Shown here one piece after another: positions 18,890 to 41,743 of a DNA stretch of 64,000 nt. The stretch lies in assembly GCF_017676345.1 (NCBI RefSeq), contig NZ_JAFFZM010000001.1, positions 434,001 to 498,000 on the forward strand. The letters run 5' to 3'. This stretch comes from Streptomyces smyrnaeus. GTDB taxonomy: Bacteria > Actinomycetota > Actinomycetes > Streptomycetales > Streptomycetaceae. Every line of letters begins with the position of its first letter. The first letter of the stretch is position 1. A program made the translations under genes and the position numbers. The notes below the pieces were generated by a model, which searched no databases, was not told where the DNA came from, and worked only from the letters and a program-made list of their open reading frames with translations.

Positions 18890-18920
18890 GTTCCCCGCGC
18901 CCCTTCGGGGCGCGGGGAAC
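18890..18920. terminator. Bidirectional hairpin between metE and the hopanoid operon
   Basis: A perfect 14-bp stem (18890-18903 with 18907-18920) closed by a TTC loop, between converging genes and 3 bp from the aminotransferase stop. The preceding CTGGTCGCGCCGTTCCCCGCGCCCC phrase, here split by the stem, is a sequence recurrent in Streptomyces genomes (from memory). No T-tract is present, so termination is by structure. Confidence 0.7.
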
Positions 18921-18923
18921 CCC

Positions 18924-20542: not shown

Positions 20543-20605
20543 GGTCGGCCCCCCTGCTCCAGCGGTTCGGTCCGGTGATCCGGGGCGGTGGCGGCGCCCG
20601 GTGCG

Positions 20606-21628: not shown

Positions 21629-21635
21629 TTCTGGC

Positions 21636-22301
21636 TCACCTCCAGGGGAGCAGCAGGGATCGGTGCCATTCAAGGAATGCGGGCAGGACACCGCGAAGGA
21701 CGCGGAATGCCGATATTCCACCCCGCAGTGTCCCGATGCGGATCAGTTCATGGCCCGGAGCGTCCACCACCACCCGTACGGCCGCAACCGGACGCCGGGC
21801 CGTGCCCGCGGCGGCGACGTCCAAGGTGGCGGCGGACTCCATGTCGGCGGCGATGGCTCCGGCGTCGTGCAGTGCGGTTCTGGCCTGGCCCCGCACCACC
21901 TGGTCGGTGCCCGCCAGAGTGCCCACGTGGACCGTGCCGTACCGGGCCAGCGCGACGGCCAGCAGTTCGGTTCCGGTGCAGGGCGTATGTCCCCGCGCGT
22001 CGCGGGTCTGTGCGGCCACGACCAGGTCACCCGGCCGCATCCCGGGCACCAGCCCCGCACAGAAACCGGTGGCCAGTACGGCGGTGCCGCCGGGCACGGT
22101 CTCCTGGGCGAGTGCCCGGGTCGTGGCGCGCCGCGCGGCCTGGGCGCCCATTCCGCTGCACAGCAGCCGCACGTTGTCGGGGCCGGTTCCCCCGTTCGGG
22201 TCGGGGATGCCCGGGCCTCCCAGGCCGCGGCGCAGCGCGAGGTGCTCGATGCCGAGCGCACACGTCAGCAGCAGCGGGTGGGGGGCTGCCGGGCTCTCCA
22301 T
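21636..22301 (-). CDS. hpnG: Hopanoid-associated nucleoside phosphorylase
   Basis: A 221-residue PNP/UDP phosphorylase-fold protein. It releases adenine from adenosylhopane to give (phospho)ribosylhopane. Recognisable parts are CSGMGAQAARRAT, VLATGFCAGLVPGMRPGD and the catalytic-loop segment ADMESAATLDVA, in which the Met-Glu pair binds ribose. The ATG overlaps the shc stop by one base (TGATG). Between shc and hpnH, its place is diagnostic for HpnG rather than a housekeeping nucleosidase. Confidence 0.92.
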   Translation of the reverse strand: MESPAAPHPLLLTCALGIEHLALRRGLGGPGIPDPNGGTGPDNVRLLCSGMGAQAARRATTRALAQETVPGGTAVLATGFCAGLVPGMRPGDLVVAAQTRDARGHTPCTGTELLAVALARYGTVHVGTLAGTDQVVRGQARTALHDAGAIAADMESAATLDVAAAGTARRPVAAVRVVVDAPGHELIRIGTLRGGISAFRVLRGVLPAFLEWHRSLLLPWR

Positions 22302-24301: not shown

Positions 24302-24354
24302 CCCTTCTCCTTCCGAAGTGTCCGATTGCTCGGAGCGGCGAGTGGGAGTTGTGC

Positions 24355-25542
24355 TCACCCCCGCCGTACGACGACGAAGTCGGCGAGTGCGGCGAACCGG
24401 TCGCGCACCCTGCCCGGCATCTCGACCGAGTCGAGCGCCGCCAGGGCCGTGGTGTGCTGGCGCTGGGCCTCCTGCGAGGTCCACTCGCGGCCGCCGGCCT
24501 CCTCGATCAGCGCGGCCCGCTCGGCGAACTCCGCCTCCTGGAAGTCCTCGAACTCCGCCTGGCTCTTCTTGGCGTCCTCCGTCATCAGCTTCGCGAGCCG
24601 CGCCGCGGCGGGGCCCTGGGAGCCGAGTGCGGCGGCGACGGGCAGCGACTTCTTGCGTTGCCGCAGGTCGCTCCAGGTCTGCTTGCCGGTGGCCTGGGGG
24701 TCGCCCCAGATGCCGAGCAGGTCGTCGACGGCCTGGAAGGCGAGGCCCAGATGGTGGCCGTAGGCCTCCAGCGCGTCCGCCGTGCGGTCGTCGGCACCGC
24801 CGAGCACCGCGCCGATGGAGGCGGCGCAGGCCAGCAGCGCGCCGGTCTTGTTCCCCTCCATCTCCAGGCATTCCTCCACCGTCACCAGGTCGCGGTGCTC
24901 GTAGGAGATGTCCTGTGCCTGGCCGTCGATGAGCTTGCGGGTCGCCACCGTGAGCCGCCGGGTGGCGCGCCCGGCCTCCACCGTGCCCAGCTCCAGCAGT
25001 ATCTCCCCGGCGAGTGCGAACAGCGCGTCTCCCACAAGGATGGCCTGCGCCGGCCCGTGCACCTTCCAGACCGTGTCGCGGTGGCGGCGCTGTTCGTCGC
25101 CGTCCATCAGGTCGTCGTGCAGCAGCGAGAAGTTGTGTACCAGTTCGACGGCGACGGCGCCGGGGATACCGGTCTGCGGCGGGCCGCCGGTCACCTCGGC
25201 GGACAGCAGCGCCAGCGCGGGCCGTACCGCCTTGCCGCCCGCGGCGTCCGAGGGGCGGCCGTCGGCGTCGATCCAGCCGAAGTGGTAGGCGGCGACGGTG
25301 TCCATCGGCGGGGCCAGCCGCTCGACAGCAGCGCGCAGTACCGGGGTGGAGAGGGTGCGCCCACGCTCCAGCAGTGCGCTCACGTCCCTGCCGGCCTCTT
25401 CGCCCTTCACGCCCTCGTCGTCCTCGTTCACGAGTTGTTGGTTCGGCGGGGTCACAGGGTCTCCTCTGTGCGGTGCTGTCGTGCTGGCTGTGCTGGCCGG
25501 GATGCCTGGGCCGGCCGGACCTACTGCGTCAGTGGTGCTCAT
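24355..25542 (-). CDS. Polyprenyl (farnesyl/geranylgeranyl) diphosphate synthase
   Basis: A 395-residue trans-isoprenyl diphosphate synthase. First Asp-rich motif is LLHDDLMDGDEQRR; the second is VDDLLGIWGDP. In the hopanoid operon it presumably supplies farnesyl diphosphate to HpnD, though chain length cannot be set from sequence with confidence. An unusual hydrophilic N-terminus of about 50 residues precedes the fold. The start overlaps the hpnE end by 14 bp; an AAGGA lies upstream of the ATG at 25542. Confidence 0.92.
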   Translation of the reverse strand: MSTTDAVGPAGPGIPASTASTTAPHRGDPVTPPNQQLVNEDDEGVKGEEAGRDVSALLERGRTLSTPVLRAAVERLAPPMDTVAAYHFGWIDADGRPSDAAGGKAVRPALALLSAEVTGGPPQTGIPGAVAVELVHNFSLLHDDLMDGDEQRRHRDTVWKVHGPAQAILVGDALFALAGEILLELGTVEAGRATRRLTVATRKLIDGQAQDISYEHRDLVTVEECLEMEGNKTGALLACAASIGAVLGGADDRTADALEAYGHHLGLAFQAVDDLLGIWGDPQATGKQTWSDLRQRKKSLPVAAALGSQGPAAARLAKLMTEDAKKSQAEFEDFQEAEFAERAALIEEAGGREWTSQEAQRQHTTALAALDSVEMPGRVRDRFAALADFVVVRRG

Positions 25543-26986
25543 GGGCCCTTCCTTCGATGCCGGGGACCGGTTCCGACCCGTACGGGCGGCCCAGTGCGAC
25601 GAGGGCTTCGCGCGCGGCTGTGGCCCCACTGCGGACAGCGCTTTCCATGGTCGCGGGCCAGCCCGTGGCGGTCCATGCGCCCGCGAGATAGACGCCGGGG
25701 GCCGAGGTGCGTGCCGCGGGGCGCAGCCGCCCGACCCCGGGCGCCGGGTCGAAGGTGGCGGTGCGCTCCCGGGTGACGAAGAAGTCCCGCACACCGGCGC
25801 CCCTGGCGGCGGGCAGCAACCGCTCCAGCTCGGGCAGGTACCGCTCGCGGAGCGCGGCGACCGGCAGGTCGATCTCGTCGTGCGCGACCGACTGGGAGAG
25901 CGCCAGATACTGGCCGCCGCCGGTGAGGCCGGAGGCCGCGGTGCGGTCGAAGACCCATTGGACGGGTGTGCCGAGTGCGGCGAAGAAGGGTCTGCGCAGC
26001 ACCTTGCGGTCGTAGACCACATGGACGTTGAGGATGGGCGCCGTGCCGATGTCCAGCAGCCTCCCCGGGTCGGCGAGGGCGCCGGCGGGCAGCAGCCGGT
26101 GTGCCTCGCGCTGCGGGACGGCGAGCACGACCGTGCCGGCCGCCAGTTCGTCGGCGCCGCTGCCGCCCTGATCGACCGTCACCCGCCAGCCGCCCTCCTC
26201 GGCGGCCTCGACGGCTCGCGCCCGGGTACGCAGCAGGATGCGCACCCCGGCCTTCTCCAGCGCCGTGCGGGCGAGGACGTCGTGGATGTCGCCGAGCGGG
26301 ACGTGCGAGAAGCCGATGTCGGCGGCCCCCGGTTCGGAGAGCAGACCGGTCTTGAAGACCATCGCCGCCAGCCCCATGGAGGCCTGCGGGGCGCGGGCGT
26401 TGAGGGTGGCGGTGCCCACCAGGTCCCACAGCGCCTCGACGGTGCGGGCCGACTGGCCGTGCCGGTGCAGCCAGGTGCCGAAGTCGATGGCGTCCAGCGC
26501 CGGGTCGGCCGGGTCGAGCCCCTTGAGGGCGAGCGCCGCGCGGGCCACCGCACCGCGTTCGGCGAGCGAGAGGTGCGGATAGCCGGCCAGGCTCGCCGCC
26601 AGGTGCAGCGGTACGGGCAGCGCGGTGCGGCGCAGCCGTCCGAGCCGGGGGCGGCCGCCGCCGACGTCGAGGACCGGCACATCCAGCCGGTCCTGCAGCG
26701 GGGCGAGCCCGGCGGCGCCCACCCGGTCCAGGAACCAGCTGTAGGCGGTGCAGCAGCGCAGATGGACGTGCTGGCCGTTGTCGACGGTCAGTGGTCCGGC
26801 GGCGGAGTCGCGCCGGAAGGAGAAGGCGAGCCCGCCCAGCCGGGGGCGGCTCTCCACGAGGGTGGTCTCCACTCCCGCCTCGGCCAGCCGCAGCGCGGCC
26901 GTCGTTCCGGCCAGACCGCCGCCGAGGACCACGGCGCGGCGCGCCCCGCCCGACCGCTCACCGGACCGCACATCGTCCGCCGTCAT
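25529..26986 (-). CDS. hpnE: Hydroxysqualene dehydroxylase (FAD-dependent)
   Basis: A 485-residue amine-oxidase-fold flavoprotein. The FAD motif is VVLGGGLAGTTAALRLAEAG with a following ESRPRLGG; the C-terminal FAD contact is GVYLAGAWTATGWPATMESAVRSG. It reduces hydroxysqualene to squalene, the third step of the HpnCDE route. GGAGGAG lies five bases before the ATG. It sits 115 bp after hpnD and overlaps the next gene. Bacterial phytoene desaturases share the fold; context decides. Confidence 0.93.
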   Translation of the reverse strand: MTADDVRSGERSGGARRAVVLGGGLAGTTAALRLAEAGVETTLVESRPRLGGLAFSFRRDSAAGPLTVDNGQHVHLRCCTAYSWFLDRVGAAGLAPLQDRLDVPVLDVGGGRPRLGRLRRTALPVPLHLAASLAGYPHLSLAERGAVARAALALKGLDPADPALDAIDFGTWLHRHGQSARTVEALWDLVGTATLNARAPQASMGLAAMVFKTGLLSEPGAADIGFSHVPLGDIHDVLARTALEKAGVRILLRTRARAVEAAEEGGWRVTVDQGGSGADELAAGTVVLAVPQREAHRLLPAGALADPGRLLDIGTAPILNVHVVYDRKVLRRPFFAALGTPVQWVFDRTAASGLTGGGQYLALSQSVAHDEIDLPVAALRERYLPELERLLPAARGAGVRDFFVTRERTATFDPAPGVGRLRPAARTSAPGVYLAGAWTATGWPATMESAVRSGATAAREALVALGRPYGSEPVPGIEGRAHEHH

Positions 26987-27101
26987 GGACGCTCCTCCCC
27001 CTGGGTCCGGTGCGTGGGTGTGCTCCGCTTCCGCTGGGACGCCCCACCGTCGCGGCGGGTTGCCCGGCGGCGGGCCGGCAGCGGCGTCGTCCGCAGCGGC
27101 A

Positions 27102-28094
27102 TCAGGCGCTCCGCCGCGACGTCTGGCGGGAGACCAGCCGCGCGTCGAAGCCGGACAGGCCGCGCACGGCCACGTACGCCTTCTCGTGTCCCGGCAGGGA
27201 GACGCGGCCGCGCAGCACCGCGGCGGGGTCCGCCGCGATGCGGTCGAGCAGGCGATGGTAGATCCCGGCCATCGCCGCGACGCAGGCGCCCGAACGCCGA
27301 TCGAGCATCGGCAGCAGTCGGTAGCCCTCGGCGAAGAGCGCGCGTGCGCGCCGCACCTCGAAGTGGACCAGCCCGGTGAAGTCGGCGCCGGGCGGCACCG
27401 TGTCGGTGGTAAATCCCGCGGCACAGCCAAATTTCTCGAGATCCTCCGAGGGCAGGTACGTTCGTCCGCCCTCGGCGTCTTCCCGCACGTCCCGGAGGAT
27501 ATTGGTCAGTTGGAGGGCGAGCCCGAGGGTGTCGGCGTACTCGGAGGCGCGGGACGTCTCGCGTGCGCCGGGTACGGTGCCGAAGACGCCGAGCGAGAGC
27601 CGGCCGATGGCGCCGGCCACACAGCGGCAGTACACCTTCAGCTCCTCCCAGGTCTCGTAGCCGGCGCCGCGCACATCCATCAGCACGCCGTCGATGAGCT
27701 CGTCGAGCGCGTCGAGCGGGATCGGGAAGCGGCCCGCCGCGTGGCTGAGTGCCACCGCGACCGGGTCGGTGTCGTCCGGGGGGACCTCGCCGTCCTTGAT
27801 CCGGGCGAGCAGTGCGCGGGTCTCCTCCAGCCGCCGCTGTTTGGCCTCCGGGGCGAGGCCGCCGTCGCCGATGTCGTCCACCCGCCGGGAGAAGGCGTAC
27901 AGCGCGGACATGGCCTGCCGCTTGGCCGCGGGCAGCAGCCGGATGCCGTAGGCGAAGTTACGGGCCTGCGCCCCGGTGACGGCCTCGCAGTAGCGATAGG
28001 CGGCGGTCACCTGAGCGGGGAGCTGCTGCGCGGGCCTGGCCCGGGGCCGCTGCGCTCCGGCGGCCTTCTCCGGCTTCCCCACCGTCCCGGTCAC
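27102..28094 (-). CDS. hpnD: Presqualene diphosphate synthase
   Basis: A 330-residue squalene/phytoene-synthase-fold protein. First Asp motif is RRVDDIGDG, second is TNILRDVREDAEGGRTYLP, both complete. It condenses two farnesyl diphosphates to presqualene diphosphate. GTG 28094 overlaps the hpnC stop as GTGA. A basic, Pro/Ala-rich stretch of about 25 residues precedes the conserved YCEAVTGAQARNFAYG start of the fold. Confidence 0.95.
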   Translation of the reverse strand: MTGTVGKPEKAAGAQRPRARPAQQLPAQVTAAYRYCEAVTGAQARNFAYGIRLLPAAKRQAMSALYAFSRRVDDIGDGGLAPEAKQRRLEETRALLARIKDGEVPPDDTDPVAVALSHAAGRFPIPLDALDELIDGVLMDVRGAGYETWEELKVYCRCVAGAIGRLSLGVFGTVPGARETSRASEYADTLGLALQLTNILRDVREDAEGGRTYLPSEDLEKFGCAAGFTTDTVPPGADFTGLVHFEVRRARALFAEGYRLLPMLDRRSGACVAAMAGIYHRLLDRIAADPAAVLRGRVSLPGHEKAYVAVRGLSGFDARLVSRQTSRRSA

Positions 28095-29050
28095 CCCTCT
28101 CCTCGCAGGCTCGCCCAGGACTCGCGCAGCACAACTGCGGCGCCGGCCCGGGGGGCTCCCGCCAGTACGTCGTACCGCGCGGCCCGCAGGGCGGAGGCCG
28201 CCGCGCGCCCGCCGCCGGTGAACCCAGCCAGCAGCAGCCGGAGTCTGCCGTGCACGCTGCGCACCAGCGGGGTGCCCTCGTCCAGCAGGCCGAGCGCGCG
28301 TTCGGTCTCGTAGGCGATCAGGGCACGCACCGAGGCGTTCGCGGTGGGGGCCGCCAGATCCGTCTCGGCGACCCGGAAGCGGGCCATGTCCTCGGCCGGC
28401 AGATAGATCCGGTCCCGGGCCAGGTCCTCGGCGACGTCCTGGAGATGTTCGATGATCTGGAGCCCCGTGCAGACCGCGTCCGAGCGGCGTACCCGCTCGG
28501 GTGTCATGGTGCCGGTGATGGCGAGGACGAGACGGCCGACGGGGTTGGCGGACAGCTCGCAGTAGGCCAGGAGTTCGGCGTAGGTGGCGTAGCGGCGGAC
28601 CTTCTGGTCCTGCCGGTTGGCCTCGATCAGGGCGAGGAACGGCTCGGGGGTCAGCCCCCGGCGGCGGACGGTGGGCACCAGGTCGCGCAGCAGCGGGTGG
28701 CCCGGCCCGTGTCCGGCACCGGCTGCGCCGTACGGGGAGGGTCCGTCGGACGGGGGGCCGCCCGGGATGGCGCCGTCGAACACCCGGTGGACGTCGGCCT
28801 CGAACGCGTCCAGCATGGCGAGCGGGTCGTCGGCCTGGCCGGGGGCGAGGCCGAGGGAGGCGGCGTGCGCGGGACCGGAGTCGCCCAGGTCCCCGTCGCC
28901 GATGTCGTCGACCAGACGGGCGAATCCGTAGACGGCCATCAGATCGTCCCGCCAGGCACGGGGGAGGAAACGGGGCGCCACCGGGAAGTTCTCCGCCTTG
29001 GCCTTGGAGAGCACCGCGCTCGCGTGCGCGTCCTCCTCCGCGGTCACCAC
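28091..29050 (-). CDS. hpnC: Hydroxysqualene synthase
   Basis: A 319-residue partner of HpnD that converts presqualene diphosphate to hydroxysqualene. It carries AENFPVAPRFLPRAWR, RLVDDIGDGD and EHLQDVAEDLARDRIYLP. An insertion rich in Gly/Pro (near DGPSPYGAAGAG) separates two helices. The start is uncertain: GTG codons at 29050 and 29047 fit the protein, but the nearest good GGAG is about 28 bases upstream, and two ATGs in between are out of frame. First gene of the eight-gene hopanoid operon. Confidence 0.92.
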   Translation of the reverse strand: MVTAEEDAHASAVLSKAKAENFPVAPRFLPRAWRDDLMAVYGFARLVDDIGDGDLGDSGPAHAASLGLAPGQADDPLAMLDAFEADVHRVFDGAIPGGPPSDGPSPYGAAGAGHGPGHPLLRDLVPTVRRRGLTPEPFLALIEANRQDQKVRRYATYAELLAYCELSANPVGRLVLAITGTMTPERVRRSDAVCTGLQIIEHLQDVAEDLARDRIYLPAEDMARFRVAETDLAAPTANASVRALIAYETERALGLLDEGTPLVRSVHGRLRLLLAGFTGGGRAAASALRAARYDVLAGAPRAGAAVVLRESWASLRGEG

Positions 29051-30408: not shown

Positions 30409-32634
30409 GTGCTGGACCGCATAGCCAACCTGACCTATCGCAGGGCACGAGGTGTGCTCGTGCTCTCCCTGCTCGCGGTGGTGGCCCTGGCCGCCGTCGG
30501 TTTCGGCGCCTTCGGCAAACTCCAGGGCGGCGGGTTCGACGACCCCGACTCGCCCTCCTCACGCGCCGCAGCGCTGATCGACGAGAAGTTCCACGGCCAG
30601 GACAACCTCGTCCTCCTCGTCCGCGCCAAGGACGGAGACCTCCGGGCGCCCGAGGTCGAACAGGCCGGACAGCGGCTGACCCGCGGCCTGCGCAAGGAGC
30701 CCGGCGTCACCCAGGTGACCTCCTACTGGGCACCCGGCGGTTCGGCCCTCACCTCACGCGACGGCGCCCAGGCGCTGGTGCTCGCCCACATGGACGAGAA
30801 CGACACCGAGCGCGTCTCCGAGGTGACCGAGAAGTGGACCGGCGAGCGGGGTGCCGTCCAGGTCCGCGCGGGCGGCGGAGCCGCACTCAACGAACAGATC
30901 AACGCGCAGGTCTCCAAGGACCTCGCGATCGCCGAGGCGATCGCCGTACCCGTGACGCTGCTGCTGCTCATCGTCGCGTTCGGCAGCGTCGTCGCGGCGT
31001 TGCTGCCGCTGGCCATCGGGCTCGTCGCGATCCTGGGCACCTTCGCAGAGCTGTATGTGCTCGGCAGCATCACGGACGTCTCCGTCTTCGCGGTCAACCT
31101 CACCACCGCGCTGGGCCTCGGGCTGGGCATCGACTACGGCCTGCTGCTCGTCAGCCGCTTCCGCGAGCGGCTCGGCGCCGGGGACGAGACGGCACAGGCG
31201 CTGCGCACCACCGTGCGCACGGCGGGCCGGACCGTGCTGTTCTCCGCCGCCACCGTGGTCGCCGCACTCGCCGCACTGCTGCTCTTCCCACCGTTCTTCC
31301 TGCGCTCCTTCGCCTACGCGGGCATCGGCGTGGTCGCCATCGCCGCGCTCTCCGCGCTGCTGATCGTCCCGGCGCTGCTGGCGGTGCTCGGGCCCCGCGT
31401 CAACAAGGGGCGGCTGCCGTGGGCGGACGCGGTGCGCAAGCCGGAGGCCCCGCTGTGGGGCAAGCTGGCCCGCACGGTGATGCGGCGGCCCGCGCTGACC
31501 GCGCTGCCGGTGCTGGCCGTACTGCTGCTGGCCGCGAGCCCACTGCTGGGCGCCACGTTCGGCACCCCCGACGCACGGGTGCTCCCCGAGAGCGCGGAGA
31601 GCCGCCAGGTCTCCACCGCGATCCAGCACGACTTCGCGGGCAACGACGCGGCGGGCGTCTCGATCGTCGTCGAGGGGCGGACCACCGGCCAGGCCGTGGA
31701 CGGCTACGCCGCCCGGCTCTCCCGGCTGGAGGGCGTCACCCGTGTCCAGGCGGCCACCGGCACCTACGCCCAAGGGCGCTCGGTACGGGCGCCGGGCGCC
31801 GCGAGTGCCGCCTTCGAGCAGAGCGGCACCCACCGGCTTACGGTCACCTCCGGCCTCACACCCGCCTCGGACAAGGCGCAGGACCTCGTACGCGAGATCC
31901 GCGGCCTTTCGGGGCCCGGTGGGGCCAAGACCCTGGTCGGCGGCCAGGACGCACAGCTGATCGACTCCAAGAAGGCCATCGCCGACAAGTTGCCGGCCGC
32001 CGTGGCCTGGGTCGTCGGCTCGACGTTCGTGCTGCTGTTCCTATTCACCGGCAGCGTCATGCAGCCGCTGCGCGCCCTGGTGCTGAACGCCGTCAGCCTG
32101 ACCGCCGCGATCGGCGCGATGGTGTGGATCTTCCAGGACGGGCATCTCTCCTCGCTGCTGGGCTTCACCCCGATGCCGATGGACACCTCCATGACGGTGC
32201 TGATGTTCTGCATCGTCTTCGGCCTGTCCATGGACTACGAGGTCTTCGTGACCAGCCGCATCAAGGAGCTGCACGACGCCGGGGCCGACAACCGCGAGGC
32301 GGTGACCGGCGGGCTCTCCCGCACCGGACGGATCGTGACCATGGCGGCCGGACTGCTGGCGGTCAGCTTCTTCGCCTTCGCCACCAGCAGCGTCTCCTTC
32401 ATCCAGATGTTCGGCCTGGGCAGCGGGCTGGCCATCCTCATCGACGCGGTGGCGGTTCGCGGGGTGCTGGTACCGGCCGCGATGCGGGTGCTCGGCCGTA
32501 CGGCCTGGTACGCCCCGGCCCTGCTGCGCAGGGTGCATGCGAAGGCCGGGCTGAGCGAGGGAGCGGACCCCGACACCGCCGAACCGCCGCACGGGCGGCC
32601 CGACGAGCGGGAGCCCGCCCGTACCGGGGTGTGA
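30409..32634 (+). CDS. MMPL/RND-family exporter
   Basis: A 741-residue membrane protein with two MMPL repeats. Each has an extracytoplasmic domain followed by a helix bundle; the proton-relay Asp-Tyr pairs are in GLGIDYGLLLVSRFRER (repeat 1) and GLSMDYEVFVTSRIKE (repeat 2). First helix at about residues 15-36. Such proteins export lipids, siderophores or drugs across the membrane by proton antiport. GTG 30409 is preceded by GGGGGA. It is controlled, by inference, by the divergent TetR repressor. The cargo is unknown; the neighbouring hopanoid cluster is one tempting source, unproven. Confidence 0.93.
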   Translation: MLDRIANLTYRRARGVLVLSLLAVVALAAVGFGAFGKLQGGGFDDPDSPSSRAAALIDEKFHGQDNLVLLVRAKDGDLRAPEVEQAGQRLTRGLRKEPGVTQVTSYWAPGGSALTSRDGAQALVLAHMDENDTERVSEVTEKWTGERGAVQVRAGGGAALNEQINAQVSKDLAIAEAIAVPVTLLLLIVAFGSVVAALLPLAIGLVAILGTFAELYVLGSITDVSVFAVNLTTALGLGLGIDYGLLLVSRFRERLGAGDETAQALRTTVRTAGRTVLFSAATVVAALAALLLFPPFFLRSFAYAGIGVVAIAALSALLIVPALLAVLGPRVNKGRLPWADAVRKPEAPLWGKLARTVMRRPALTALPVLAVLLLAASPLLGATFGTPDARVLPESAESRQVSTAIQHDFAGNDAAGVSIVVEGRTTGQAVDGYAARLSRLEGVTRVQAATGTYAQGRSVRAPGAASAAFEQSGTHRLTVTSGLTPASDKAQDLVREIRGLSGPGGAKTLVGGQDAQLIDSKKAIADKLPAAVAWVVGSTFVLLFLFTGSVMQPLRALVLNAVSLTAAIGAMVWIFQDGHLSSLLGFTPMPMDTSMTVLMFCIVFGLSMDYEVFVTSRIKELHDAGADNREAVTGGLSRTGRIVTMAAGLLAVSFFAFATSSVSFIQMFGLGSGLAILIDAVAVRGVLVPAAMRVLGRTAWYAPALLRRVHAKAGLSEGADPDTAEPPHGRPDEREPARTGV

Positions 32635-32729: not shown

Positions 32730-33575
32730 CTACTTGCTGGTGAACTTCTCGTACTCCTTCAGGACCTCTTCGGTCGGCCCGTCCAGCATGAGCTCGCCCT
32801 TCTCCAGCCACAGCACCCGCTCGCACGTGTCGCGGATGGACTTGTTGTTGTGGCTGACGAGGAAGACCGTGCCGGCTTCCTTGCGGAGCTCGCGGATGCG
32901 GGCCTCGGAGCGCTTCTGGAACCTCTTGTCACCGGTCGCCAGCGCCTCGTCGATCATGAGGACGTCGTGGTTCTTGGCGGCGGCGATGGAAAAGCGCAGC
33001 CGGGCCGCCATGCCGGAGGAGTAGGTCCGCATCGGCAGGGTGATGAAGTCGCCCTTCTCGTTGATGCCCGAGAAGTCGACGATGTCCTGGTAGCGACGGG
33101 CGACCTCCTCGCGGGACATCCCCATCGCCAGGCCGCCCAGAACGACGTTCCGCTCGCCGGTCAGGTCGTTCATCATGGCCGCGTTGACGCCCAGCAGCGA
33201 GGGCTGACCGTCGGTGTAGACCTTGCCGCTCTCGGCCGGCAGCAGCCCGGCGATGGCCTTGAGCAGCGTGGACTTCCCCGAGCCGTTGGAGCCGATGAGC
33301 CCGATGGCCTGGCCCCGGTACGCGGTGAAGCTGACGCCCCGCACCGCGTGCACCTCGCGCATGCCGCCGCCCGGCTTGCGGCGGACGATCCGGTTGAGGG
33401 CCGCGGTGGCGCTGCCCTTGCCCTTGGAGCCGCCGTAGACGCGGTAGACGATGTGCAGGTCCTCGGCGATGACGGTGGGCACCCAGGGGCCAGGAGTCTG
33501 CGCCGCCTCCGCCTCCGTCTTGGTGCCGGACTCGGCGGACGCTCCGCTCTGCTCGGTCTGCTCAGCCACGGCCAT
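32730..33575 (-). CDS. Polysaccharide/teichoate-type ABC exporter ATPase (Wzt/TagH-like)
   Basis: A 281-residue ATPase with Walker A IGSNGSGKST, signature YSSGMAARLRF, Walker B VLMIDEALATGD and switch VSHNN. The EALATGD form is typical of the O-antigen/teichoic acid exporter subfamily. No C-terminal carbohydrate-binding extension is present, so substrate recognition must lie elsewhere. GGAGGAG lies four bases before ATG 33575, which overlaps the permease end by 14 bp. It is the last gene of the seven-gene glycolipid-like operon. Confidence 0.92.
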   Translation of the reverse strand: MAVAEQTEQSGASAESGTKTEAEAAQTPGPWVPTVIAEDLHIVYRVYGGSKGKGSATAALNRIVRRKPGGGMREVHAVRGVSFTAYRGQAIGLIGSNGSGKSTLLKAIAGLLPAESGKVYTDGQPSLLGVNAAMMNDLTGERNVVLGGLAMGMSREEVARRYQDIVDFSGINEKGDFITLPMRTYSSGMAARLRFSIAAAKNHDVLMIDEALATGDKRFQKRSEARIRELRKEAGTVFLVSHNNKSIRDTCERVLWLEKGELMLDGPTEEVLKEYEKFTSK

Positions 33576-34515
33576 AACGCTCCTCCGCCTTCCAGAAGAA
33601 AACAAATCCGCCGATGCCCACGACCACGGCCCAGCCCAGCGCGAGCGCCCAGACGTGCGGGGGGAGCTGGCTGCTGGGGTACTCCTCGATGAAGGCGAAC
33701 CGCATCAGGTCCATGTAGACCGCGGCGGGATTGGCCTGCAGCAGGTCGGCCAGCCAGCCCGGAGCGCTCGCCCGCTTCTCCAGCATGTACTTGAGCGGGA
33801 ACATCACACCGGACGCGTACATCCAGGTGCGGGTTATGAACGGCATCAGCTGTGCCAGGTCGGGCGTCTTGCTGCCGAGCCGGGCCAGGATCAGCGCCAG
33901 TCCGGTGTTGAAGACGAACTGGAAGGCCAGCGTCGGGAGGATCAGCAGCCAGGAAAGCCGCGGCAGCTCACCGAACCCGAGCAGGATGACGACCAGCACG
34001 ATCATCGAATAGAGCAGCTGCTGGAGCTGCTGGAGCGCCACCGAGATCGGCAGTGCCGCGCGCGGGAAGTGCAGCGCGCGCACCAGCCCGAGGTTCGAGG
34101 AGATCGCCCGCACCCCGTTGAGCACCGAGGTCTGGGTGAAGGTGAAGACGAACACCCCGGTGATCAGGAACGGGACGTAGTTGTCCTTGCCGCCCGGGGT
34201 GCCGTCCCGGCCGCCGAGCAGCACACCGAAGATGAAGTAGTAGACGGCCGCGTTCAGCAGCGGTGTGGCGACCTGCCACAACTGGCCCAGCTTCGCCTGG
34301 CTGTACTGCGCCGTCAGCTTCGCCCGGGAGAAGGCGAGAATGAAATGCCGCCGCGCCCAGAGCTGCCGCACGTAGTCGGGCAGCGAGGGGCGCGCTCCGC
34401 TCACCGACAGGCCGTATTTGGCCGCGAGTTCGGACGGAGTCAGACGGTCGTCCGGTGACGGCGGAGGCAGCACGCCGACCGAGCTGTCGGCGCTGTCGTG
34501 GGTTGTCTCGCTCAC
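33562..34515 (-). CDS. ABC-2 polysaccharide/teichoate exporter permease (Wzm/TagG-like)
   Basis: A 317-residue permease with about six membrane helices (for example YYFIFGVLLGG, LITGVFVFTFTQ, LYSMIVLVVILLGFG, ALALGWAVVVGIGGFVFFW). The N-terminal amphipathic stretch RQLWARRHFILAFSRAKL followed by YSQAKLGQLWQV is typical of TagG/RfbA permeases. GTG 34515 is my choice, with GAGGACG upstream; in-frame GTG 34536 and TTG 34545 remain possible. With the ATPase it should move a lipid-linked polymer or glycolipid across the membrane. Confidence 0.9.
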   Translation of the reverse strand: MSETTHDSADSSVGVLPPPSPDDRLTPSELAAKYGLSVSGARPSLPDYVRQLWARRHFILAFSRAKLTAQYSQAKLGQLWQVATPLLNAAVYYFIFGVLLGGRDGTPGGKDNYVPFLITGVFVFTFTQTSVLNGVRAISSNLGLVRALHFPRAALPISVALQQLQQLLYSMIVLVVILLGFGELPRLSWLLILPTLAFQFVFNTGLALILARLGSKTPDLAQLMPFITRTWMYASGVMFPLKYMLEKRASAPGWLADLLQANPAAVYMDLMRFAFIEEYPSSQLPPHVWALALGWAVVVGIGGFVFFWKAEERYGRG

Positions 34516-34582
34516 GTTGGAAACTTTCGTCCTCACACTGCGCAAGTGGATCCGGGGCTGATGCTCGTCAGGGACGAGCTTG

Positions 34583-35476
34583 TCAGATCACGGGCGGGCG
34601 TCCCAGCCGCGTCAGACGCCATACCGTACGCCACCGCATCGGCCTGCGGGCTCCCGCGGGCGTGGTCCAGCCTTCCTTGAAGCCGCCCAGCCAGGCCCGC
34701 AGTGCCGGCATGGAGGGGCGCCGGGCGAGCGTGAGCAGCAGCCACACGCCCAGGTAGACGGGGACGAGCAGCGCGGGAAGGTTGCGCCGGGCGAGCCAGA
34801 CGCGGTTGCGGGCCACCATCCGGTGGTACACGGCATGCCTGCTGGGAGCGGTGGTCGGGTGGTGCAGCACCATGTCGGCGCGGTACTCGATGCCCCAGCC
34901 GGCGTCGAGCGCACGCCAGGCCAGGTCGGTCTCCTCATGGGCGTAGAAGAACTCGTCGGGCAGACCGCCGACTTCGGCCAGCACCTTGGTGCGCACGGCG
35001 TTGGCGCCACCGAGGAAGGTGGTGACCTTCGAGGAGCGCATCGGGTCGGAGGCGCGCAGCCGGGGCACGTGGCGGCGCTGGGTGACGCCCGTGTCCGGGT
35101 CGGCGATGCGGAAGCTGATGATGCCGAGTTTCGGGTCGGCCTCGAACGCCTCGCGCACCAGTTCGGCGGTGTCGGAGGAGGGCAGCAGCCCGTCGTCGTC
35201 CAGGAAGAGCAGCGCGTCCACCTCGGCACCCGAGGGGCCGAACGCCTCGATACCGACATTCCGCCCACCGGGGATGCCGAGATTTTCCGGAAGCTCGACC
35301 TTCCGTACACCGTCCGGCAGCTCGGGCAACGGCGCGCCGTTACCCACCACGACGACCTCGATCGGCTCGCCGTCCTGCTTGGCGACCGACTCCAGCAGTG
35401 CGCGCAGCTCCTCGGGGCGGTTGCCCATGGTGAGTACGACGGCACCCAGTCGCATCGCTTTCCCGGCCTCCGTCAC
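34583..35476 (-). CDS. Family-2 glycosyltransferase
   Basis: A 297-residue GT-A enzyme. Sugar-nucleotide-binding acidic motif FLDDDG lies about residue 92; GGANAVRTKVL and the acceptor-side HEETDLAWRALDAGW motif follow. The C-terminus has one membrane-like stretch (LLVPVYLGVWLLLTLA), suggesting peripheral or integral attachment. The closest look is to rhamnosyl/galactosyl transferases, but the donor cannot be named. GTG 35476 has GGAGG eight bases upstream. Confidence 0.9.
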   Translation of the reverse strand: MTEAGKAMRLGAVVLTMGNRPEELRALLESVAKQDGEPIEVVVVGNGAPLPELPDGVRKVELPENLGIPGGRNVGIEAFGPSGAEVDALLFLDDDGLLPSSDTAELVREAFEADPKLGIISFRIADPDTGVTQRRHVPRLRASDPMRSSKVTTFLGGANAVRTKVLAEVGGLPDEFFYAHEETDLAWRALDAGWGIEYRADMVLHHPTTAPSRHAVYHRMVARNRVWLARRNLPALLVPVYLGVWLLLTLARRPSMPALRAWLGGFKEGWTTPAGARRPMRWRTVWRLTRLGRPPVI

Positions 35477-35504
35477 TTCTTCCCGCCTCCTGTCACTTCA
35501 GCGG

Positions 35505-36284
35505 TCACTTCAGCCTGCTGGAGGCGAGGATGGACACCAGGTGCAGCAGCGTCTGCAGCACCGCGATACCGGCGAGCACCGCGACGCCGAGCCGGGTGAG
35601 GAACAGATCGCCGCGGATCTGGTCCACGACCGCCACCACCAGGATCAGCAGCGACGCCTCGATCCCCAGCACCAGCCGGTGGAACTTCAGCGCCGCGGCG
35701 GCCTTGCGCGCCAGCGCCAGCCCCGAGGAGCGCGGCTCGGACGCCGACTCCTTGACCGGCGGCAGCCCGCCCTGGTGGCGGGCGACGCCCACCAGGTCGG
35801 ACTCCGCCTTGATCAGGATGGCCCCGAGCGCGGCCAGCGTGCCCAGGAAGGCCCACAGCCAGTCGATCCGGCCGCCGCCCCACAGGTCTGCGGCACGCAG
35901 CCCGAAGCCGACCAGCACCGCCGCGTCGCACAGATAAGCGCCGACGCGGTCCAGGTAGACCCCGCCCAGCGAGAACTGCTTCTTCCAGCGGGCCACCTCG
36001 CCGTCGACACAGTCGAGCAGCAGGTAGAGCTGGACCATCACCACACCCAGCACCGCGCCGACGATCCCCGGCACCAGCAGCGCCGGCAGCGCCAGCACTC
36101 CGGCGAGGGTCATCACATACGTCAGCTGGTTGGGGGTGATCCGGGTGTTCACCAGGTGCCGGTCGACGCGCAGCGACAGCTCGCGCATGTAGAGGCGGCC
36201 GGCCCAGTGCTCACCGCTTCGCCGGTCCTTCACCCCGGCGGGGTGGACGACCGGCCGCAGCTCAGCTACCGATGGTTTGTGCAT
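35505..36284 (-). CDS. CDP-alcohol phosphatidyltransferase-family protein lacking the last catalytic Asp
   Basis: A 259-residue membrane protein with about six helices. The family motif D-x2-D-G-x2-A-R-x8-G-x3-D-x3-D reads Asp91, Asp94, Gly95, Ala98, Arg99, Gly108, Asp112, and then Ala116 where the fourth Asp, the proposed catalytic base, should be (segment GGVYLDRVGAYLCD). The metal- and CDP-binding part is intact. It therefore may bind but not turn over a CDP-alcohol, or use another base (Asp120 is four residues on). It overlaps the next gene by 23 bp. Substrate unknown. Confidence 0.85.
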   Translation of the reverse strand: MHKPSVAELRPVVHPAGVKDRRSGEHWAGRLYMRELSLRVDRHLVNTRITPNQLTYVMTLAGVLALPALLVPGIVGAVLGVVMVQLYLLLDCVDGEVARWKKQFSLGGVYLDRVGAYLCDAAVLVGFGLRAADLWGGGRIDWLWAFLGTLAALGAILIKAESDLVGVARHQGGLPPVKESASEPRSSGLALARKAAAALKFHRLVLGIEASLLILVVAVVDQIRGDLFLTRLGVAVLAGIAVLQTLLHLVSILASSRLK

Positions 36285-37323
36285 AGTCCGCGTACGCGTC
36301 CCTGATCTGGTCGGTGGACAGGTCGAGGTGTTCCAGGATCGTGTACCGCCCGGGGCGGGTCTGCGGCGCGTACGCGACGGCCTCGACGAACTCGTCCGGG
36401 TCGAAGCCGATGTCGGCGGGCAGCACCGGCAGCTTGTGCCGACGCAGCACCTGGACCATCAGCTTGGCCGTGTCCTTGTCCCCGCGCAGATAGGTGGCGA
36501 AGGCGGCGCCGAGGCCGCACTGCTCGCCGTGCGGAGCGGCACGCTTGGGGTAGAGCAGGTCGAAGGCATGGTTGATCTCGTGGCAGGCGCCCGAGGCCGG
36601 ACGGCTGTCCCCGGCCACCGACATCGAGATGCCGGTGAGCACCAGGCCCTCGGCGAGCACCTGGAGGAAGTTGTCGTCGCTGACGTCCCCCGGGTGGTGC
36701 AGGATCGCCTCTCCGGCCTGCCGGGCCATGGCGGCGGCCAGCCCGTCGATGGCCTCGCCGCGCACCTCGTGCCCCAGCTCCCAGTCCTTGACGGCCGAGA
36801 CGTTGGAGATCACATCGCCGATCCCGGAGCGGATGTAGCGCTCGGGGGCCTCGCGGATGACGTCGAGGTCGATGACGACGGCGATCGGGTTGGGCACCCC
36901 GTAGGAGCCGCGGCCCGCGTCGTTGTCGAGGGTGGCGACCGGTGAGCACAGTCCGTCGTGCGACAGATTGGTGGCCACCGCCACCAGCGGCAGGCCGATC
37001 CGGGCCGCCGCGTACTTCGCACAGTCGATGATCTTGCCGCCGCCGAGTCCGACCACCGCGTCGTAGCGGCCGGACTTCATCGCGTCGGCGAGCTTGATCG
37101 CGTCGTCCAGCGTGCCGCCGCCGACCTCGTACCAGGAGGCGTTGGGCAGCAGAGGTGCGAAACGCTCGCGCAGCGCGGCACCGGAGCCGCCGCTGATGGC
37201 GAAGGCGAGCTTGCCGTTGGTGGAGATCCGCTGATCGGCCAACAGGCCCGCCAGGTCGTCCAGCGCGCCGCGGCTGATGTCCACGACGACCGGCGACGGG
37301 ATGAGGCGGGTCAGTACTGGCAT
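36262..37323 (-). CDS. Glycerol-1-phosphate-dehydrogenase-like enzyme (Fe-ADH_2)
   Basis: A 353-residue member of the family of AraM/EgsA and dehydroquinate synthase. Nucleotide-binding motif VVGLGGGKIIDCAKYAA; metal ligands are probably the Asp and His residues in NLSHDGLCSP, GACHEINHAFD and PHGEQCGLG. Known members reduce dihydroxyacetone phosphate to sn-glycerol 1-phosphate with NAD(P)H. GGGAG lies five bases before ATG 37323, which overlaps the nucleotidyltransferase end. In this operon it likely makes the polyol phosphate that is then activated and transferred; other polyol substrates are possible. Confidence 0.88.
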   Translation of the reverse strand: MPVLTRLIPSPVVVDISRGALDDLAGLLADQRISTNGKLAFAISGGSGAALRERFAPLLPNASWYEVGGGTLDDAIKLADAMKSGRYDAVVGLGGGKIIDCAKYAAARIGLPLVAVATNLSHDGLCSPVATLDNDAGRGSYGVPNPIAVVIDLDVIREAPERYIRSGIGDVISNVSAVKDWELGHEVRGEAIDGLAAAMARQAGEAILHHPGDVSDDNFLQVLAEGLVLTGISMSVAGDSRPASGACHEINHAFDLLYPKRAAPHGEQCGLGAAFATYLRGDKDTAKLMVQVLRRHKLPVLPADIGFDPDEFVEAVAYAPQTRPGRYTILEHLDLSTDQIRDAYADYAQTIGS

Positions 37324-38048
37324 GCGATCTCCCGGCCCTTGGCGAGGTCGTCGTGGTTGTCGATCTCGACCCACTTGACGTCCCCGATGGGGGCGATGTC
37401 GACCTTGAAGCCGCGGTTGACCAGCTCCTGGTAGCCGTCCTCGTAGTAGAGCTGCGGGTCGCGCTCGAAGGTGGCCTTCAGCGCGTCGGCCAGCTCGGCG
37501 CCGGCCTCCGGCTCGATCAGGGTGAGGCCGATGTACTCGCCGGTCGCCTCGGCGGGGTCCATCAGCTTGGTGATGCGCTGGACGCCCTTGGCGGGGTCGA
37601 CGACGACCTTCATCTCCTCGTCGGCGAGGTCCTTGACGGTGTCGAGGGCCAGGATGATCTTCCGGCCGTCACCGCGCGCGTTCAGCAGCGTCTGCTCGAC
37701 CGAGACGGGGTGCACGGTGTCGCCGTTGGCGAGCAGCACGCCCTCCTTGAAGACATCCCGGGCGCAGTAGAGGGAGTAGGCGTTGTTCCACTCCTCGGCC
37801 TTGTCGTTGTCGATCAGGGTGAGCTTGACGCCGTGCTTGGCCTCCAGCTCGGCCTGCCGCTCGTAGACGGCTTCCTTGCGGTAGCCCACGACGACCGCGA
37901 CATCGGTGAGACCGACCTGTGCGAAGTTGGCCAGGGCGATGTCGAGGACGGTGGTCTCGCCATCGACGGGCACCAGGGCCTTGGGCAGGGTGTCGGTGTA
38001 GGGGCGCAGACGCCGTCCGGCGCCGGCGGCCAGCACGAGGCCGATCAT
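37311..38048 (-). CDS. Sugar/polyol-phosphate nucleotidyltransferase (MobA-like/GT-A fold)
   Basis: A 245-residue enzyme. Nucleotide-binding signature LAAGAGRRLRP and substrate motif PKALVPV open the protein; NNAYSLYCARDVF and LLANGDTVH supply the metal-binding Asp. Nearest relatives by pattern are choline-phosphate or inositol-1-phosphate cytidylyltransferases. Between a polyol-phosphate dehydrogenase and two CDP-alcohol transferases, a CTP-using role is the simplest reading. AAGGAG lies seven bases before the ATG. ATGA overlap with the DUF5941 gene couples them. Confidence 0.9.
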   Translation of the reverse strand: MIGLVLAAGAGRRLRPYTDTLPKALVPVDGETTVLDIALANFAQVGLTDVAVVVGYRKEAVYERQAELEAKHGVKLTLIDNDKAEEWNNAYSLYCARDVFKEGVLLANGDTVHPVSVEQTLLNARGDGRKIILALDTVKDLADEEMKVVVDPAKGVQRITKLMDPAEATGEYIGLTLIEPEAGAELADALKATFERDPQLYYEDGYQELVNRGFKVDIAPIGDVKWVEIDNHDDLAKGREIACQY

Positions 38049-39820
38049 GCGGGTTCTCCTTCGTCGTGTACTGCGGGTGCTTGCGACGACACCCAGAAAC
38101 GGATGCTCTCGACGAGCACCACGGCCGCGATGACCACGGCGAGCGTGGTCAGCGCGAAGATGAAGCCTTGTGTGCGGCCTCCGCCGCCCAGCCAGAGGGC
38201 CGCGGCGACGGTGACCAGCAGGGTCCGTCCTTCGTGCCCCCCGACCGCCCGCACCAGCCAGTGCGGAGGCGCTCCGGTGCCACCGCGGATGCGGTACACC
38301 GTGTCGTAGTGATGGTAGGCGAGAGCCGCCACCAGCCCGAATGCCGCGGGAAGCGCGCCGTCGGTCTCCGTACGGGCGGCCAGCACCAGGATCGTGCCGT
38401 ATTCCGCGATACGAAAGAAGGGTGGCAGCAGCCAGTCGACGGGGCCCTTGAGGGGCCTCGCGAGGGCGACCCCGGCGCACAGGGCGTAGACCACGGCGGC
38501 CGGTACGGGCCAGGGGCTGCCCAGTGGCGCGGCCCACGCGGTGGCGAGGATCACGGCACCGCCGAGGAAGGCGACGGCGGGCGCGGCAGCCGGGGGCAGC
38601 GGGAGCGGGCGCAGCAGCCGGGCACCGAGTTCGGCGAGGGGGCCGCTGTCGGTGAGCGCGCGGACCCCCTCGGCCGCGCGGTCGGTGCGGGCCCTGCGGT
38701 GCAGGGAGCGCAGCAGCCGGCCTGCCGTGGTGTAGCAGGCGGCGAGGGTCCCGGCGACGAGCAGTACGAGGAAGGTGATGCGCGGTGTGGTGGCGGCCGT
38801 CAGCACGGCGATGAGGGCCCAGCGCTCCCCGATGGGCAGCACTATCATCCGCCGGGCCCACACGGTCCACCCCGCGCTGTCCAGCCGGCTGGAGAGCGCG
38901 GCGGTGCGGCTGGTGGTGGCGCCCTCGTCGCGCGCGGCCTCGTTGAAGGAGAAGTCGACGGTGTGCCGCGCGGTCATCAGCAGCATGGCGCCGAGCGCGA
39001 GCGCCCACACGTCGTCGTGGCTGCCGCGTGCGGCCCCGAGCGCCAGGCCCGCGTAGTAGGCGTACTCCTTGGCCCGGTCGAAGGTGGCGTCCAGCCAGGC
39101 GCCGAGCTTGGAGTACTGCAGGTCGTAGCGGGCGAGCTGGCCGTCCGTCGCGTCCAGCACGAACGAGGCGATCAGCAGCACCCCGGCGGTCACGAAGCCC
39201 CACCGCTCGCCCGTCGCGGCGCACCCCGCGGCGATCAGCGCGGTGAGCAGCGAGGCCGTGGTGACCTGGTTGGGGGTCAGCCCGCGGCGGGCGCACCAGC
39301 GGGCGAGGTAGCGCGAGTAGGGGCTGACGCAGAAGGTGGTGAAGAAGCCGTCGCGGGACTTGACCGCGGAACGCAGCCGGACGGCTTCGTCGTCGACGGC
39401 GGCGACGGCGGCCTCGGCTTCCTTGCGGGCCGTCTCGTCGGCGGGCACCGTCGCCACGAGAGTCCCCAGCTCGGGCCGGTGGATCTCGACGCCCGCCGCC
39501 TCCAGCGCTGTGGCCGCCTCCTGGGGGCCGCCCGTCAGGTCGGGCGGCAGCGCGCGCCGCGCCTCGGGGGTGACACCGAGCACACCGGGCAGCGCGCCCG
39601 CCTCGAAGCGGGGGTCCTTCAGGGCGAGCCGCAGCGCATGGGTGTGGCCGACGAAGCGCGGGTCGATCAGGGCGAGCCGTTCGTTCGCCGCGGCGGCGGC
39701 AAGGTGGGTGCTGACCTCGGCGGGCCGGGAGGCCACACGCACATCGAAACCGAGCGAGCGCAGGTCGGTCTCGAGCGACGACCCGGCAACCGGCGGACCG
39801 GTGAGGATGGCGGTCGACAG
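38045..39820 (-). CDS. DUF5941 / CDP-alcohol phosphatidyltransferase fusion
   Basis: A 591-residue membrane protein. An N-terminal soluble domain (about 1-150; LIDPRFVGHTHALRLALKDPRF) is followed by a CDP-alcohol transferase domain with a complete motif (DATDGQLARY, LGAWLDATFDRAKEY) and a C-terminal helix-rich half with eight or so membrane segments. It is probably the active polyol-phosphate transferase of the operon. No ATG or GTG is available near the conserved start: an AAGGAG at 39831-39836 is ten bases before a CTG at the position where I recall homologues starting with M-S-T-A-I-L. I chose that CTG; a TTG at 39868 is the fallback. Confidence 0.85.
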   Translation of the reverse strand: MSTAILTGPPVAGSSLETDLRSLGFDVRVASRPAEVSTHLAAAAANERLALIDPRFVGHTHALRLALKDPRFEAGALPGVLGVTPEARRALPPDLTGGPQEAATALEAAGVEIHRPELGTLVATVPADETARKEAEAAVAAVDDEAVRLRSAVKSRDGFFTTFCVSPYSRYLARWCARRGLTPNQVTTASLLTALIAAGCAATGERWGFVTAGVLLIASFVLDATDGQLARYDLQYSKLGAWLDATFDRAKEYAYYAGLALGAARGSHDDVWALALGAMLLMTARHTVDFSFNEAARDEGATTSRTAALSSRLDSAGWTVWARRMIVLPIGERWALIAVLTAATTPRITFLVLLVAGTLAACYTTAGRLLRSLHRRARTDRAAEGVRALTDSGPLAELGARLLRPLPLPPAAAPAVAFLGGAVILATAWAAPLGSPWPVPAAVVYALCAGVALARPLKGPVDWLLPPFFRIAEYGTILVLAARTETDGALPAAFGLVAALAYHHYDTVYRIRGGTGAPPHWLVRAVGGHEGRTLLVTVAAALWLGGGGRTQGFIFALTTLAVVIAAVVLVESIRFWVSSQAPAVHDEGEPA

Positions 39821-41055: not shown

Positions 41056-41182
41056 GGCCGCAGAACGACAGCAATGGGCACAGATGTGCGCGATATAGAC
41101 AGAATCCCGCAGAATGCGGAGTTACCGCGTCGCCTGCGGCACACTGGATCACGCTGCCCACAGGCCCACCCGAAGGATCACC

Positions 41183-41743
41183 ATGGCGAACAGCTCAGCG
41201 GCCCCGATCATGCTCGAACTGGTCGACGAGGACGGGACGACGATCGGTACCGCGGAGAAGCTCTCCGCCCATGTGGCCCCCGGGCGGCTGCACCGCGCCT
41301 TTTCCGTCTTCCTCTTCGACGAGGAGGGCAGACTCCTCCTCCAGCGCCGTGCGCTGGGCAAATACCACTCTCCGGGGGTGTGGTCCAACACCTGCTGCGG
41401 CCATCCCTATCCCGGTGAGCCGCCGTTCGCCGCCGCCACCCGGCGGGTCGGCGAGGAGTTGGGGGTGGCGCCCTCGCTGCTGCGGGAGGCCGGCACCGTC
41501 CGCTACAACCACCCGGACCCGGCCTCGGGGCTGGTCGAGCAGGAGTTCAACCATCTGTTCGTAGGGCTGCTGCGCCAGGAGCCGCGGCCGGACCCCGCGG
41601 AGATCGCCGAGACCGCGTTCGTGACCTGGGACGAGCTGGACAAGCGGCATGCGACGGACACGTTCTCCACCTGGTTCATGACCGTGCTGGACGCGGCCCG
41701 TCCGGCCATCCGCGAGGTGACGGGCGGCGCCGGGAGCTGGTGA
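41183..41743 (+). CDS. idi: Isopentenyl-diphosphate delta-isomerase, type I
   Basis: A 186-residue Nudix-fold isomerase. Active-site Cys and metal ligands are in SNTCCGHPYPGE; LHRAFSVFLFD and the Nudix helix RRVGEELGV are present, and the catalytic Glu region is EQEFNHLF. It balances isopentenyl and dimethylallyl diphosphate for the hopanoid pathway encoded 12 kb away. GAAGGA lies before the ATG. 127 bp separate it from galE. Confidence 0.95.
   Translation: MANSSAAPIMLELVDEDGTTIGTAEKLSAHVAPGRLHRAFSVFLFDEEGRLLLQRRALGKYHSPGVWSNTCCGHPYPGEPPFAAATRRVGEELGVAPSLLREAGTVRYNHPDPASGLVEQEFNHLFVGLLRQEPRPDPAEIAETAFVTWDELDKRHATDTFSTWFMTVLDAARPAIREVTGGAGSW

Follow-up and report, generated by a model that had tools for sequence, protein, structure and literature searches.

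A conserved seven-gene operon of Streptomyces proposed to belong to a glycerol-1-phosphate surface-polymer system

The operon and its occurrence in relatives

The window analyzed here is a stretch of 64,000 nucleotides of Streptomyces smyrnaeus DNA (assembly GCF_017676345.1, contig NZ_JAFFZM010000001.1, positions 434,001 to 498,000), from a genome of about 8.1 Mb in 69 contigs. It contains an operon of seven open reading frames (ORFs) on the minus strand, running from about 39820 down to 32730 in the order A-B-C-D-E-F-G (Table 1), for which we propose a role in the synthesis of a glycerol-1-phosphate (Gro1P) surface polymer. The number, place, order and families of these genes, as described in an initial annotation of the stretch, were borne out by the ORFs and by Pfam and NCBIfam profiles. 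Gene F scored 60 bits against the Wzm model, under its cut-off of 380, and the best named NCBIfam model for gene G was TagH, with 179.5 bits under a cut-off of 320.

Genes A and B overlap by 4 bp, B and C by 13 bp and C and D by 23 bp, and a gap of 28 bp separates D from E. The 37 bp gap between E and F and the 44 bp overlap of F with G both depend on uncertain starts. The start candidates of A are the first listed TTG, at 39868, and a CTG at 39820 located ten bases after an AAGGAG, with the end at 38045. The tight packing previously noted thus holds, but not the statement that one of the junctions falls outside 70 bp, since all six overlap or are at most 37 bp apart when the longest ORFs are taken.

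Table 1. Coordinates of the operon genes, of motifs and domains within them, and of neighboring features in the window.
Feature	Position	Strand	Description
Gene A	38045..39820	-	CDP-OH_P_transf + DUF5941 fusion (Pfam); start uncertain
Catalytic motif of A	39077..39154	-	All four Asp present; DxxDGxxAR at residue 223 counted from 39820
DUF5941 domain	38048..38683	-	Pfam 314 bits; predicted catalytically dead partner with CDP-alcohol-transferase fold
Gene B	37311..38048	-	LicC/IPCT-like NTP_transferase, Pfam 56 bits; ATG start
Gene C	36262..37323	-	Fe-ADH_2; glycerol-1-phosphate dehydrogenase-like, EgsA/AraM family
Gene D	35505..36284	-	Second CDP-alcohol phosphotransferase; CDP-OH_P_transf 30.3 bits (Pfam)
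Motif of D	35937..36014	-	Fourth Asp position (residue 116) is Ala
Gene E	34583..35476	-	GT2 glycosyltransferase; Pfam Glycos_transf_2 44 bits
Gene F	33562..34545	-	Wzm/TagG-like ABC-2 permease; Pfam ABC2_membrane 47 bits; start uncertain
Gene G	32730..33605	-	Wzt/TagH-like ATPase; Pfam ABC_tran 71 bits; start uncertain
MMPL transporter gene	30409-32634	+	Between operon and hopanoid genes
Hopanoid-type genes	18924-29050		Two squalene/phytoene synthases, amine-oxidase family, polyprenyl synthetase, squalene-hopene cyclase, radical SAM DUF3463, class-III aminotransferase
idi-like gene	41114-41743		Other flank of operon

The operon is real and widely conserved. The genus sample comprised 121 Streptomyces genomes for C, 61 for D, TagD and TagF, and 21 for PcrB, and the class sample comprised 197 genomes in which C orthologues were counted at a threshold of at least 330 bits. 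The survey across Streptomyces that the initial annotation had suggested, here of C and D, found C in all 121 genomes and D in all 61. In the class sample, a C orthologue was present in 47 genomes, of which 16 were from Streptomyces and 31 were not. From each of these 31, up to 20 kb around C was taken, together with nine Streptomyces stretches, and 80 further named loci, the best 80 of 590 matches, were added; their taxa lean to Streptosporangiales (Nocardiopsis, Streptomonospora, Actinomadura, Thermomonospora, Streptosporangium, Microbispora, Nonomuraea, and others). Removal of 6 duplicates from 111 non-Streptomyces loci left 105 distinct ones, some of them clipped by contig ends, in which each ORF was given its one best profile.

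Gene B was found in 103 of these 105 loci, D in 95 and E in 93. The initial annotation had held that its proposal would fall if homologues of the separate genes never occurred together elsewhere; this is not the case, because B, C, D and E co-occur in 91 of the 105. B and C lie on the same strand at most 132 bp apart in 103 loci, and at most 60 bp apart in 99. The commonest order in relatives is A core, DUF5941, B, C, D, E, and rearranged orders keep the gene set (B-C-F-G-A-D-E in L065, A-F-G-B-C-D-E in L071). Outside the class, C orthologues of 466-533 bits were detected in four genomes, with D and E at all four loci, B at three, and the permease/ATPase pair and A with DUF5941 each at two. 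More distant C relatives (216-273 bits) occur in 13 genomes; at the six loci inspected (L195-L200), a B-like gene was always present, touching C in five and about 3 kb off in one. The universal presence of C and D in the Streptomyces genomes searched, and the recurrence of the set, variously ordered, in further families and classes, argue that the operon is not a product of chance.

Some of the loci showed other arrangements. In L062 (10539-11255) and L064, B-C is followed by a different CDP-alcohol transferase, with a complete motif in L062, and these stretches gave no match to A, D, E or F. In L080, a GT2 protein containing a TarS linker domain is encoded at 17202-19247, close to C-D-E genes.

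Genes B and C and the putative supply of CDP-1-glycerol

Gene C scored 244 bits against the NCBIfam glycerol-1-phosphate dehydrogenase model, under its equivalog cut-off of 413 bits. Its closest solved structures were Gro1P dehydrogenases (E 1.4e-44), ahead of 3-dehydroquinate synthases, and glycerol dehydrogenases matched more weakly (1e-16 or worse), except for 3ce9, labelled glycerol dehydrogenase, at 8.9e-42. Conservation extended to the Asp, His, and His columns that correspond to the metal-ligand positions. The divergence of C from the model could also be explained if the enzyme reduced a pentulose or another ketose phosphate and the polymer contained ribitol, arabitol, or a similar polyol; the TagF family also includes ribitol-phosphate transferases. 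This is improbable when Gro1P dehydrogenases are the nearest solved relatives and outrank most glycerol dehydrogenases, and the residues aligned with metal ligands are kept.

The closest solved relative of gene B was the CDP-choline enzyme LicC (1jyk, E 9.6e-14). The LicC/IPCT group of COG1213 cytidylyltransferases is described as using varied small (alcohol) phosphates (PMC12275187). B is proposed to be a CTP:glycerol-1-phosphate cytidylyltransferase. Since B and C overlap in the window and are almost universally paired in relatives, the simplest chain would lead, we infer, from dihydroxyacetone phosphate through Gro1P to CDP-1-glycerol.

The use of Gro1P had been considered rare in bacteria beyond Bacillus in the initial annotation. 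A 2026 paper does mention bacterial AraM in some species, notably Bacillus (PMC13400652), but the claim of rarity needs correction in view of the Gro1P dehydrogenase homologues already reported in Actinobacteria (PMC5059525) and of the presence of C throughout the Streptomyces sample. The absence of a PcrB/GGGP ether-lipid route, on the other hand, was supported beyond the window: the PcrB family matched in none of 21 Streptomyces genomes versus 7 of 14 control genomes. An ether-lipid route, which in the AraM-PcrB form known from Bacillus would have the Gro1P dehydrogenase family in common with the operon, was dropped on this basis.

CDP-alcohol transferases and the DUF5941 domain

Gene A carries a complete DxxDGxxAR(x8)GxxxDxxxD motif. 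Its model had low confidence (pLDDT 67), and the best Foldseek match, AF2299 (E 7.8e-9), extended along most of its length. A degenerate nucleotidyltransferase domain at the N-terminus (approximately residues 1-150) was not callable in this poorly modelled region. AF2299 was also the nearest solved relative of D (E 2.7e-11). A second D paralogue, 52-58% identical, is found elsewhere in five Streptomyces genomes (G011, G017, G024, G033, and G040).

The nearest solved relatives of A and D are AF2299 and IPCT-DIPPS, the donors of which are soluble CDP-alcohols. The operon resembles this Archaeoglobus system in combining a nucleotidyltransferase with a CDP-alcohol transferase using a soluble CDP-alcohol, and differs from it by its separate genes, its altered D motif, and the linked GT2, exporter and polymer genes. 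As in Archaeoglobus, such a pair might produce a soluble phosphodiester of the glycerophosphoinositol or di-inositol-phosphate type. The bifunctional IPCT-DIPPS model matched A, B, and D with 45.5, 46.5, and 48.3 bits, respectively (cut-off 580), and CDP-1-glycerol is described as a requirement for glycerophosphoinositol in archaea (PMC8262930). However, the GT2 protein, the polysaccharide-type ABC exporter, and the LCP, TagF, and GDPD neighbors fit no obvious compatible-solute role, and we regard a soluble product as quite improbable.

The DUF5941 domain, fused to A in Streptomyces, usually has its own gene in relatives, immediately upstream of B. Its AlphaFold2 model (pLDDT 85) matched best, in the VIA comparison, the PIP synthase 5d92 (Z 16.1, rmsd 3.1, 181 aligned). 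The top 15 rows were all CDP-alcohol transferases (Z 10.0-16.1), and the next unrelated row had a Z of 7.9; eleven rows exceeded Z 13, a level below which the arrangement of helices in a bundle may suffice for a match. In Foldseek, the E-values were 0.029 or worse, and an earlier structure alignment was discarded, as its rows fell on another domain. A profile comparison of DUF5941 with A by hhalign found no relationship (probability 0.2), and the predicted fold is for this reason what supports their kinship. The CDP-alcohol-transferase motif was found in none of 88 stand-alone DUF5941 ORFs (duplicates included). Having the fold without the active-site motif, DUF5941 looks like a pseudo-enzyme partner of an active CDP-alcohol transferase, insofar as the model is correct. 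Since CDP-alcohol transferases are dimers, a natural guess is that it would form a pseudo-dimer with its active neighbor. The name DUF5941 was absent from the literature searched, which was mostly without subscription journals.

A proposed surface-polymer pathway and its genomic context

Among the 105 non-Streptomyces loci, LCP wall-polymer-ligase-like genes were found in 76, GDPD genes in 45, Wzt-like genes in 44, and TagF-like genes in 30. The TagF12 family was counted as TagF-like, being a distant PF04464 member (26-39 bits versus a 22-bit cut-off for five ORFs, 31 bits for one). TagF17 matches of 40-70 bits were taken as glycosyltransferase domains and not as TagF, and four TagF17 ORFs at approximately 670-745 bits (L080, L081, L083, and L087), for which Pfam gives only glycosyltransferase domains, were excluded from the TagF counts.

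In the class sample, in which species counts are not independent, the TagF family exceeded the cut-off in 45 of 47 C-positive genomes versus 45 of 150 C-negative ones (Fisher p 9e-17, uncorrected for relatedness). TagD-like genes, defined by at least 100 bits to the TagD model, showed the opposite distribution (0 of 47 versus 13 of 150; Fisher p 0.04, likewise uncorrected). No gene exceeded the TagD cut-off in 61 Streptomyces or 197 class genomes, two C-negative class genomes coming within 1 bit, and weaker matches were present in 44 and 73 genomes, respectively; in 14 control genomes, the cut-off was exceeded in two. The genome from which the window was taken contains two strong PF04464 TagF-family genes at C13, outside the operon, and strong TagF genes were present in 56 of 61 Streptomyces genomes. 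In genome G000, a 65-bit TagD relative at C45:343434-344427 is convergent with another CDP-alcohol transferase.

Streptomyces lipoteichoic acid is reported to be a polyglycerol phosphate, and actinobacteria to have no clear LtaS orthologues, leaving LtaS-free synthesis an open question (PMC3196553). In Bacillus, wall teichoic acid is a polymer of glycerol-3-phosphate and lipoteichoic acid a polymer of Gro1P (PMC7086022). The TagF-like polymerase Cps7D can polymerize pure CDP-1-glycerol, a compound called likely absent from bacteria (PMC5974469, PMC8262930), and this published expectation makes our prediction a sharp one.

These results suggest, with a probability of about one half, that the operon is an actinobacterial Gro1P surface-polymer system, with substrates, reactions, acceptor, and product deduced from gene families and context. 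C would reduce dihydroxyacetone phosphate to sn-glycerol-1-phosphate, and B would combine it with CTP to give CDP-1-glycerol, the mirror image of the CDP-glycerol made by TagD from sn-glycerol-3-phosphate. D, together with A and its built-in DUF5941 pseudo-enzyme half, would move Gro1P onto a membrane-bound acceptor, E would add sugar, and the Wzm/Wzt pair F/G would carry the product outward. TagF-family polymerases, encoded elsewhere in the Streptomyces chromosome and within the locus in some other genera, may share the CDP-1-glycerol pool to form a teichoic- or lipoteichoic-type polymer. The more specific version, a dedicated CDP-1-glycerol pathway leading in actinobacteria to Gro1P-type lipoteichoic acid, and perhaps wall teichoic acid, made intracellularly without LtaS or TagD, and with DUF5941 as a dead pseudo-dimer partner, is offered tentatively as one that may well prove wrong. 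The earlier view of the operon as one functional unit, in which polyol-phosphate chemistry is followed by CDP activation, membrane transfer, and export, is supported by the gene context.

Such a pathway would share with Bacillus wall teichoic acid synthesis (TagD-TagB/TagF-TagGH) a presumed CDP-activated glycerol phosphate, a genomic TagF family, a two-component ABC exporter and, near many relatives' loci, LCP. It would differ in having no TagD over the cut-off and, in its place, a Gro1P-dehydrogenase-like gene with a LicC-type nucleotidyltransferase, in its two CDP-alcohol transferases and DUF5941, and in the predicted opposite glycerol configuration. With the LtaS pathway of lipoteichoic acid it would share Gro1P surface units, but the predicted donor is cytoplasmic CDP-1-glycerol and not phosphatidylglycerol.

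Alternatively, no long polymer would be made, and D, acting as a Kennedy-type enzyme, would place glycerol-1-phosphate from CDP-1-glycerol on diacylglycerol or a glycolipid; E would glycosylate, and F/G flip, the resulting phosphatidylglycerol-like lipid or glycerophospho-glycolipid. In line with this, A and D are relatives of membrane CDP-alcohol transferases, C and D occur in all 61 Streptomyces genomes and strong TagF in 56, and the glycerol head of phosphatidylglycerol has the sn-1 configuration (PMC7086022). The LCP, TagF-like, and Wzt-like genes at many relatives' loci point instead to a polymer, and we consider this lipid head-group route unlikely.

Several observations weigh against the proposed Gro1P surface-polymer system. 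None of the seven proteins reaches the cut-off of the NCBIfam model that it matches best. No recognizable motif was present in the A protein picked at 35 of 94 loci, 22 of them in Nocardiopsis and close genera and 5 in Actinomadura, and some of these ORF picks may be wrong. In D, the motif is without its fourth Asp, which as a base activates the hydroxyl of the acceptor: Ala occupies this position in the window and in seven other Streptomyces loci, and among 100 D proteins from the 111 non-Streptomyces loci (6 duplicates), 86 had His there and 14 had Ala, 13 of these 14 being from Nonomuraea loci. The weak TagD matches in 44 of 61 Streptomyces genomes, 26 of them at 58-70 bits, might make CDP-glycerol. 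Sixteen of 65 class genomes with strong TagF had neither C nor a TagD-like gene, and five of 61 Streptomyces genomes, one of them only 82% complete, lacked any TagF match reaching E 1e-30. As C and D were nevertheless found in all 61, TagF is not the sole consumer; A and D may be the core consumers, next to which TagF would be one more.

Second copies of C were found in eleven Streptomyces genomes of the genus and class samples. The nine loci inspected (L095-L100, L102, L104, and L106; those of G102 and G116 were not among them) adjoin rplU/obgE. In eight, rne lies on the opposite side, whereas the ninth is located where its contig begins; six carry B. A full TagF lies within 10 kb of the second C in five of the nine. 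This proximity is weak and only suggestive, because no TagF was found at the other four and one of six single-C Streptomyces genomes also had TagF within 10 kb of obgE.

Published data add further counter-arguments. The COG1213 enzyme CpgD is inactive on glycerol-1-phosphate (PMC12275187), so that membership of this family leaves the substrate of B unsettled. CDP-1-glycerol is not a donor for Cps3D, another TagF-like polymerase (PMC5974469, PMC8262930), and Streptomyces walls are reported to carry mainly phosphate-free teichulosonic acid (PMC11481543).

Among the papers listed by the literature search, light on subscription journals, none was recognized as proposing a CDP-1-glycerol pathway for actinobacteria. 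For the S. coelicolor locus, SCO6743-6757, those listed dealt with the neighboring SCO6743 or, in one case, with network inference. The locus has nonetheless not escaped notice: these Streptomyces clusters, containing araM, tagG, and tagH, appear in a synteny survey of 2026 that associates them with teichoic acid biosynthesis (PMC13118837). The Streptomyces synteny, the teichoic-acid association, and the actinobacterial Gro1P dehydrogenase are therefore already in print (PMC13118837, PMC5059525), and the new details are the DUF5941 fold without the motif and the absence of the fourth motif Asp from D.

The operon is flanked on one side by the MMPL transporter, TetR, and squalene/hopene genes and on the other by epimerase (galE-like) and NUDIX (idi-like) genes. 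The MMPL gene was present in one of seven other Streptomyces operon loci (L094). As the Streptomyces operon adjoins squalene/hopene and idi-like genes, and HpnC and HpnD are neighbors at the 12 other Streptomyces operon loci examined, the operon might decorate the hopanoids of the adjacent cluster. This very improbable link was dropped, since 115 non-Streptomyces loci (duplicates included) gave no match above 80 bits to HpnC, HpnD, SHC, HpnH, MMPL, or idi. Further away in the window, a cobalamin riboswitch (16053-16276) was observed immediately ahead of the gene (16144-18783) for a cobalamin-independent methionine synthase.

If the Gro1P surface-polymer pathway is correct, Gro1P would gain a bacterial cell-surface role outside ether lipids, DUF5941 would gain a likely role, and the stereochemistry of glycerol would be linked to its biosynthetic route. 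The operon, by pairing a Gro1P-dehydrogenase-like with a cytidylyltransferase-like enzyme, makes LtaS-free lipoteichoic acid synthesis (PMC3196553) and the presumed absence of CDP-1-glycerol from bacteria (PMC8262930) directly testable questions. Such a pathway could explain how Streptomyces and many related soil bacteria assemble polymers at their surface although they lack the usual enzymes.

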